The translations under genes and the position numbers were made by a program. The notes under the pieces were generated by a model that was not told the origin of the DNA, ran no database searches, and was given only the letters and a program-made list of their open reading frames with translations. Below, in pieces: positions 40,744-41,670 of a DNA stretch of 64,000 bases. The stretch comes from Bdellovibrio sp. GT3 (GTDB taxonomy: Bacteria; Bdellovibrionota; Bdellovibrionia; Bdellovibrionales; Bdellovibrionaceae), in contig NZ_JBBNAD010000005.1 of the NCBI RefSeq assembly GCF_037996765.1, positions 1,086,001-1,150,000 of the forward strand, read 5' to 3'. The stretch's first letter is position 1, and each line of letters starts with the position of its first letter.

Positions 40744-41670
40744 TTAATCTTTGAATTCAACGACGTTGACGGTGCGCTCAGATTTCATGGTACTGATGCG
40801 TTTGTTGATTTCTTCTGCCAGGGTTTCAAGTTCTTTGAACTCGTCGCCTTTACGCACTTTAAGTGGCGGAATGGACTCGCCCTTCATGATTCCGTAGACA
40901 TATCTTTCAAAGGCATAGATGGGGCCGGCAATGCGATGGGAAAGGACTTTTCCGACTGCAAAAGTAATGGCACAAAATGCGATGCAGATAATAGTGAAGG
41001 TGATCACATAAGGCACCAGAAACTTATTCAAAAGAAATTGGTTATTGCCAACCAGCTCCTGAATGGTCACACGCAGATACGTGTAAGAGAAAACCAGACT
41101 GATCAGAGTAAGACTTAAACCCACGGCCATCATCAGAATGCAGTACTTTACCTGAAACGACAAATTGACCCAGAAACGTTTGCGCGAGTTGTTTTCCGGC
41201 CACAACAATTCTCCTTCGCGGATAATCGCATAGACGATCAAACCATAGCCAACCCATTGAAGGGCATCGGCGATATTGAAAGCCGGGCTGGACAAGGATG
41301 GAGTTCCGATAACAATGAAATCGACAACATATCCCCAGATGATTCGGTCGCCGACGTTGCCCAGAATCCCGCCGATTAATATCGAAAGGCCACAGCGCAA
41401 GGTCAGGGATTTGATGGGTAACAGGTATTGAATCAAAGCGTAAGTACACAGTAGGAATGCGCCGCCGGTGGAAAGTGAGACGATACGCAGCACTGATGGC
41501 AAATCTGAAAACAGGCCTAGCATTGCGCCGTGATTGTGGTGCAATACGAAGTGCAGTGGGCCGTGGGATATCACTGAAGTGATGTCCGTAGCCCACAGCT
41601 TAGTTACGCGGTCGACCAACCAGGTCGCAACAAGAGGAAGTATAACAATGAGCCATTCGCGCTTTTTCAT
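40744..41670 (-). CDS. lspA: Signal peptidase II (LspA) fused to a HAMP-like domain
   Basis: 308 residues; ordinary LspA is about 160. Residues 1-155 keep the family marks: D20-x-x-x-K24, HNHGA in 45-49, GGILGNVGDR with N105 and D108, and the catalytic aspartates D117 (YVVDF) and D135 (FNIADA). It cleaves the signal of lipidated prolipoproteins. After a short linker come two more membrane segments (about 175-197 and 218-242). A HAMP-like pair of helices (about 243-295, SHRIAGPIYAFERYV and RKGDEFKELETLAEEIN) ends the protein. This fusion is unusual. The gene stands alone on the minus strand between lon and dacB. Confidence 0.9.
   Translation of the reverse strand: MKKREWLIVILPLVATWLVDRVTKLWATDITSVISHGPLHFVLHHNHGAMLGLFSDLPSVLRIVSLSTGGAFLLCTYALIQYLLPIKSLTLRCGLSILIGGILGNVGDRIIWGYVVDFIVIGTPSLSSPAFNIADALQWVGYGLIVYAIIREGELLWPENNSRKRFWVNLSFQVKYCILMMAVGLSLTLISLVFSYTYLRVTIQELVGNNQFLLNKFLVPYVITFTIICIAFCAITFAVGKVLSHRIAGPIYAFERYVYGIMKGESIPPLKVRKGDEFKELETLAEEINKRISTMKSERTVNVVEFKD

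Follow-up and report, generated by a model that had tools for sequence, protein, structure and literature searches.

What might a bacterium gain from a signal peptidase II (LspA) that continues into a HAMP-like tail? In the textbook account a small residue precedes the lipobox cysteine, and a single LspA handles every lipoprotein. The question arises from a window of 64,000 nucleotides of Bdellovibrio sp. GT3 (assembly GCF_037996765.1, contig NZ_JBBNAD010000005.1, positions 1,086,001 to 1,150,000), in which all coordinates given without a contig are numbered from the first letter. The ORF list and translation place a single reading frame of 308 codons on the minus strand, and the 308-residue product opens with an LspA domain and continues through two membrane helices into a HAMP-like pair of helices. 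In Bdellovibrio the gene stands alone, with dacB divergent on one side and lon convergent on the other. The features of the locus are as follows.

40744..41670, minus strand: LspA-HAMP fusion gene, 308 aa (ORF, Pfam, homologues, AF2)
41221..41631, minus strand: signal peptidase II domain, residues 14-150 (PF01252, PDB sequence search, Foldseek)
41320..41322, minus strand: catalytic Asp117 (invariant, 74 homologues)
41266..41268, minus strand: catalytic Asp135 (invariant, 74 homologues)
41245..41259, minus strand: residues 138-142 QWVGY, candidate specificity residues (fusion versus ordinary LspA alignment)
41143..41202, minus strand: conserved linker WPENNSRKRFWVNLSFQVKY, residues 157-176 (homologue alignment)
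41050..41163, minus strand: tail helix 1, residues 170-207 (AF2)
40885..41040, minus strand: tail helix 2 and HAMP-like AS1, residues 211-262 (AF2, alignment, hhalign)
40906-40941, minus strand: SHR-AGP-YAFE signature of tail helix 2 (alignment)
40837-40854, minus strand: RKGDEF, just ahead of the AS2 helix
40762..40833, minus strand: HAMP-like AS2 helix, residues 280-303 (AF2, hhalign, Foldseek)

The first-pass annotation had called this protein an LspA with Asp117, Asp135 and the other family motifs complete, fused to a tail, and both claims were borne out. PF01252 (Peptidase_A8/SPase II) matches residues 14-150 with an E-value of 9.8e-23 (81.4 bits against a cut-off of 25), a PDB sequence search also returns LspA, and Foldseek recovers the LspA fold (6ryp, E 2.5e-7; 5dir, E 1.9e-6). 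The conserved N, G, NxxDR and NxAD motifs and the catalytic Asp dyad are complete, and D20, K24, N46, G48, N105, D108, R109, D117, N132, A134 and D135 are invariant in 74 of 74 aligned homologues, an alignment with 41 invariant positions in total. The protein therefore shares with known LspA (PF01252, MEROPS A8; 5dir, 6ryo/6ryp) its fold, its Asp dyad and all conserved catalytic residues. It differs in an extra 150-residue TM-HAMP-like tail, in fixed Q138, W139 and Y142 near the catalytic Asp, in its linkage to non-canonical lipoboxes and in missing the TIGR00077 lspA equivalog threshold (46.9 bits against 73.95). These scores place it in the LspA superfamily but outside the housekeeping equivalog.

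The chain runs on for about 150 residues past the LspA domain. In the AF2 model of the full chain (pLDDT 86.5) the LspA part is followed by helices 170-207, 211-262 and 280-303, and the tail modelled alone gives the same fold (pLDDT 88). R163, Q173, S244, A248, G249, P250, A253, F254, R273 and D276 of the tail are also invariant in the 74 homologues. Since invariant positions occur in both parts, the LspA part and the tail evolve as a single protein, and since the tail is collinear and conserved, it is neither a chance extension nor a frameshift. A start inside the gene would have made the tail a separate protein; we found no sign of one, and linker residues W157, P158, R163 and Q173 are conserved like the domains. 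Full-length relatives, nearly all in one open frame and mostly 40-92% identical, were found across the class Bdellovibrionia (about 120 of 144 genomes), which also speaks against a separate tail protein. The fusion is real, conserved and functionally constrained.

PF01252 is present in all genomes of the class, typically twice, as an ordinary and a fused copy. The search for a second lspA that the first-pass annotation had advised gave an ordinary 168-aa copy in the fusion's own genome (C5:112316-112747). Outside Bdellovibrionia the fusion is patchy among other classes of the phylum, while across the class, with its about 70 genera, it is vertically conserved. A divergent second fusion copy (G118, L088:5213-6133; about 31% identical) has intact LspA residues and an altered HAMP-like signature, and genomes of family f14 carry ordinary lspA genes as tandem pairs (L380, L387-L391). 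More than one LspA per genome is also found in Myxococcus xanthus, where two housekeeping LspAs are in tandem in an operon with lgt and the other two lie in an antibiotic cluster; no such tail is described for them (PMC8689077). The fusion could by analogy be an antibiotic-insensitive spare LspA, like Myxococcus lspA3/lspA4 for myxovirescin, and paralogues in such a role do exist (PMC8689077). However, the fusion is near-universal in the class, no biosynthetic cluster was seen among the neighbours inspected, and a spare enzyme explains neither the tail nor the link to lipoboxes described below. We consider this very improbable.

Of the HAMP-like helix pair proposed in the first-pass annotation, the fold and the register stood, while the Pfam HAMP model scored nothing and no output domain follows the tail. 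PF00672 gave zero matches among 40 fusion members (maximum E 10), a Pfam/NCBIfam search gave no HAMP above cut-off and only weak WalK/AdeS alignments, and a PDB sequence search with the tail gave no match. In the AF2 model, which treats the tail as a monomer, a TM helix leads into helix-connector-helix, and hhalign with HAMPs encoded elsewhere in the genome (a modest probability of 49% at a pairwise E of 2e-4, against 0.2-4% in control alignments) aligns P250 and D276-E277, placing the Pro and DE in HAMP register. Foldseek ranks WalK at the top for the tail (probability 0.94, but E 0.37), with weaker matches to VicK (0.30) and McpB (0.33) and TorS and NarQ also among the weak ones. The predicted fold and register support a HAMP-like tail that resembles HAMP (PF00672; WalK, VicK, McpB) in its second TM helix running into helix-connector-helix, and that differs in lying below Pfam detection, in its fixed SHR-AGP-YAFE signature and in lacking an output domain of its own, be it kinase, MCP or cyclase. 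Elsewhere in the same genome an 1841-codon ORF carries about a dozen tandem HAMP domains (G000:C6:98811-102017; L197-L216).

Within the phylum, relatives of the tail are also widely found as stand-alone TM-HAMP-like proteins. Two are encoded in the fusion's own genome (L174, G000:C6:230656; L175, C5:50154), neither with a Pfam HAMP match, and both begin with an RK..(V/L)N..(F/V)Q motif, as the tail does. The homology of these 2-TM proteins extends over the entire tail with its RK..VN..FQ.KY lead-in, and the second half of the linker WPENNSRKRFWVNLSFQVKY matches their N-terminus; unlike the fusion they lack an LspA domain and have about 145-240 aa. Most simply, the fusion would have arisen when a duplicated lspA acquired a stand-alone TM-HAMP-like gene. 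In the two f11 genomes (G141 and G142; L193:4988-7483, L400, L403) lspA, two lgt genes and, as the last gene, one for a stand-alone TM-HAMP protein form a single operon, which would again tie the module to lipoprotein maturation.

The neighbours of the fusion suggest what it may process. The published lipobox rule is [LV][ASTVI][GAS]C (PMC8689077). Our lipobox calls followed a rule made for the present analysis, not SignalP, and the locus sets come from different searches that share genomes, so the counts below are not additive. Asn, Gln or His stands at -1 in 23 of 32 lipoprotein candidates at loci of the phylum outside the class, and in 3 of 55 at Bdellovibrionia loci. In family f12 the fusion is often last in an operon with two lipoproteins, with lipoboxes such as SYTQ-C, SFNH-C and GYNQ-C, and an FQNC or YQNC lipoprotein gene directly adjoins the fusion at unrelated loci in G157, G208, G287, G306, G316 and G338. 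G316 has one [FY]QNCG match genome-wide, and it is the fusion's neighbour that carries it. Among 27 linked lipoproteins, which were chosen for N/Q/H at -1, position -3 is Y15 F11 L1, position -2 is N14 Q7 T6 and position -1 is Q12 H8 N7. The Cys belongs to the motif, since it comes next in 27 of 35 N-termini ending in [FY][QNT][NQH], a count that overlaps the linked set and comes mostly from the same genes. Predicted [FY]x[NQH]C lipoproteins were thus found linked to the fusion in independent families; some neighbours are canonical (outside Bdellovibrionia, L366 and L369) and some loci are without such a gene. The Bdellovibrio genome has only three [FY]QNCG matches and no FQNC gene linked to the fusion, and its candidate substrates would be unlinked (L256, L311:5854-7122, L319:19312-19842). 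A search of the accessible literature gave no report of an LspA-HAMP fusion or of a [FY][QNT][NQH]-C lipobox class, and the available portion of the paper on the Bd0875 lipobox does not give the lipobox sequence. The f12 genomes also hold a conserved exported-protein operon around LspA-HAMP (L186:12-7870 and relatives), with nearly all members lacking a Pfam match; among them are a CxxCH-containing lipoprotein, a Tat-type RRDFL protein, a CxxCH protein and a TPR-like protein.

Genome-wide counts were made with an [FY]QNCG DNA pattern, which leaves out the f12 variants YNQC/FNHC, and with the reversed pattern as control. The pattern is enriched in Bdellovibrionia, with 88 matches against 15 controls in 18 intact f9 genomes (51.1 Mb) and 21 against 6 in six intact size-matched genomes (12.1 Mb). 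Ten small genomes, in which the fusion is lost (G095, G096, G103, G104) or mutated (G102, G105, G123-G126), gave 4 matches against 8 controls in 15.6 Mb and hence no enrichment (p 6e-7 versus f9 and 4e-5 versus the size-matched set, values that ignore phylogeny). When one match was sampled per genome, it lay at the end of a signal peptide in 18 of the 20 intact Bdellovibrionia, in 0 of 4 lost or decayed genomes and in 0 of 5 f12 genomes, which use other lipobox variants; of the two intact exceptions, the G038 match was not N-terminal, and all that was missing in G066 was a start codon nearby. An earlier sample gave 19 of 30.

Lgt number follows the same division. Each of the ten lost or decayed genomes has one Lgt, while 98 of the 101 remaining genomes at >=90% completeness carry at least two (Fisher test on genomes at least 90% complete, 5.5e-7, phylogeny ignored). 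The single Lgt of the lost or decayed genomes is of the long type wherever a match is listed; several of the shorter copies adjoin lspA, and of the three intact genomes with only one Lgt, two (G097 and G128) have the short type beside lspA. Typically, a Bdellovibrionia genome carries two or three Lgt paralogues, in length classes of about 250, 260-300 and 355-440 aa. The intact fusion, its predicted [FY]QNCG substrates and the extra Lgt were lost together, and since the ten genomes belong to a few related lineages in the tree, this co-loss amounts to only one to three events and is confounded with genome reduction. Decayed genomes hold lipoproteins with Asn at -1 but without FQN, so their ordinary LspA may accept Asn. 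The -1 residue alone failed as a genome discriminator, and only the FQN triad separates the genomes.

Comparison of the fusion with 24 ordinary LspAs indicates where such a preference might reside. While every catalytic residue is retained, Q138 (Ile in all ordinary LspAs), W139 (mostly Val) and Y142 (Val) are fixed in the fusion, on a helix face shared with catalytic Asp135; other differences are I102 for Ala, L66 for Phe and G70 for Pro. We infer from this matching of pocket to lipobox that Q138, W139 and Y142 probably help to accept amide side chains.

Other neighbours bear on the tail. Among the genomes whose loci were fetched, 28 have a gene for an SBP_bac_5 peptide-binding protein upstream of the fusion in the same orientation; intact cases are lipoproteins, those next to Bdellovibrionia fusions have a canonical lipobox, and the orthologues form a clear, separate score class (>380 bits versus <=250). 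In about 14 genomes the gene immediately preceding the fusion encodes a REC-GGDEF diguanylate cyclase (receiver D54 and K105 invariant, GG[DE]EF motif). An intact copy lies between the SBP gene and the fusion in some of the 28 and not in others, and elsewhere only REC-GGDEF remains. The SBP_bac_5 lipoprotein-REC-GGDEF-LspA-HAMP operon is conserved in Bdellovibrionales families other than that of Bdellovibrio (L070:3507-5986, L067, L074, L075, L079 and others). The best match to the operon REC-GGDEF in the fusion's own genome, another REC-GGDEF whose gene adjoins a cation efflux-like one, was rejected as its orthologue. In G123-G126, where fusion and SBP genes are a linked pair, the active site has been destroyed while the tail signature persists, and so does the SBP, though without its lipobox cysteine; G102 likewise has a ruined active site, a kept tail and an SBP without lipobox, but the genes are not adjacent. 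The association of active-site decay with SBP lipobox loss (5 of 5, only one or two events by the tree) is at most suggestive. The SBP and REC-GGDEF neighbours, together with the decayed copies that keep the tail, hint at a possible second function of the tail. Two separable functions are suggested, with catalysis tied to FQNC lipoproteins and the additional Lgt, and the tail tied to a partner.

The same observations would fit a receptor in which the LspA part serves above all to dock a lipoprotein sensor. SBP_bac_5 would bind peptide and touch the LspA or TM part, the tail would signal to REC-GGDEF, c-di-GMP would change, and proteolysis would be ancestral or secondary. The recurrent upstream genes, the SBP score class and the decayed copies that keep their TM-HAMP residues and SBP are all in line with this. 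However, a pure receptor would not need the catalytic residues, which are strictly invariant elsewhere; the SBP orthologue is absent from Bdellovibrio's family, and no SBP was seen beside the f12 fusions; and the decayed cases go back to only one or two events. We therefore regard a receptor as rather unlikely.

The first-pass annotation had suggested that lipoprotein processing is sensed or controlled through the tail, perhaps at the switch between attack and growth. Sensing or control through the tail is possible. If the fusion were a second LspA of broad specificity, with the tail switching its rate over the attack/growth cycle, an intact LspA joined to a HAMP-like fold would be accounted for, but nothing found points to such a switch, an ordinary lspA is also present, the fusion is conserved vertically over the roughly 70 genera and its linkage indicates a particular lipobox class. 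The gene is moreover class-wide and patchy in other classes, and its neighbourhood points to substrate specialisation, often with a peptide-binding protein and a diguanylate cyclase. General processing of this kind seems improbable.

Based on these observations, we favour the fusion as a dedicated second SPase II for a new lipobox class, with a HAMP-like coupling tail, at a probability of about 0.58. The fusion, its conservation, its intact active site, the gene linkage and the co-occurrence were observed directly; for cleavage, specificity, lipidation and signalling we predict the following course. In candidate substrates an aromatic-amide lipobox, [FY][QNT][NQH]-C, would take the place of the standard [LV][ASTVI][GAS]-C, typically as FQN-C or YQN-C in Bdellovibrionia and YNQ-C or FNH-C in f12. 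The cysteine would be lipidated first, possibly by the extra Lgt of these genomes, and the LspA domain would then cut before it, with the polar or bulky Q138, W139 and Y142 (mostly I/V/V in ordinary LspA) probably aiding acceptance of the amides. The TM-HAMP-like tail, presumably a fused copy of the stand-alone 2-TM protein common in the phylum, would most likely dimerise the enzyme and couple it to a partner, in many genomes probably the operon-encoded SBP_bac_5 lipoprotein and REC-GGDEF diguanylate cyclase.

In exosortase/PEP-CTERM-type pairs a membrane enzyme has its own cognate sorting signal, which is C-terminal. The dedicated logic predicted for the fusion is similar, although family and chemistry are unrelated and its signal would be an N-terminal lipobox. 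We tentatively propose that Bdellovibrionota may have two parallel lipoprotein-maturation routes, the second with its own Lgt, the fusion as a HAMP-regulated SPase II and the lipobox [FY][QNT][NQH]-C. If so, a defined subset of envelope proteins could be matured or regulated separately, and control of lipoprotein maturation for such a subset would become directly testable. The fused and ordinary enzymes would give structure-function studies an LspA pair of switched specificity, and prediction tools that follow the textbook lipobox would be overlooking a class of surface proteins in predatory bacteria.
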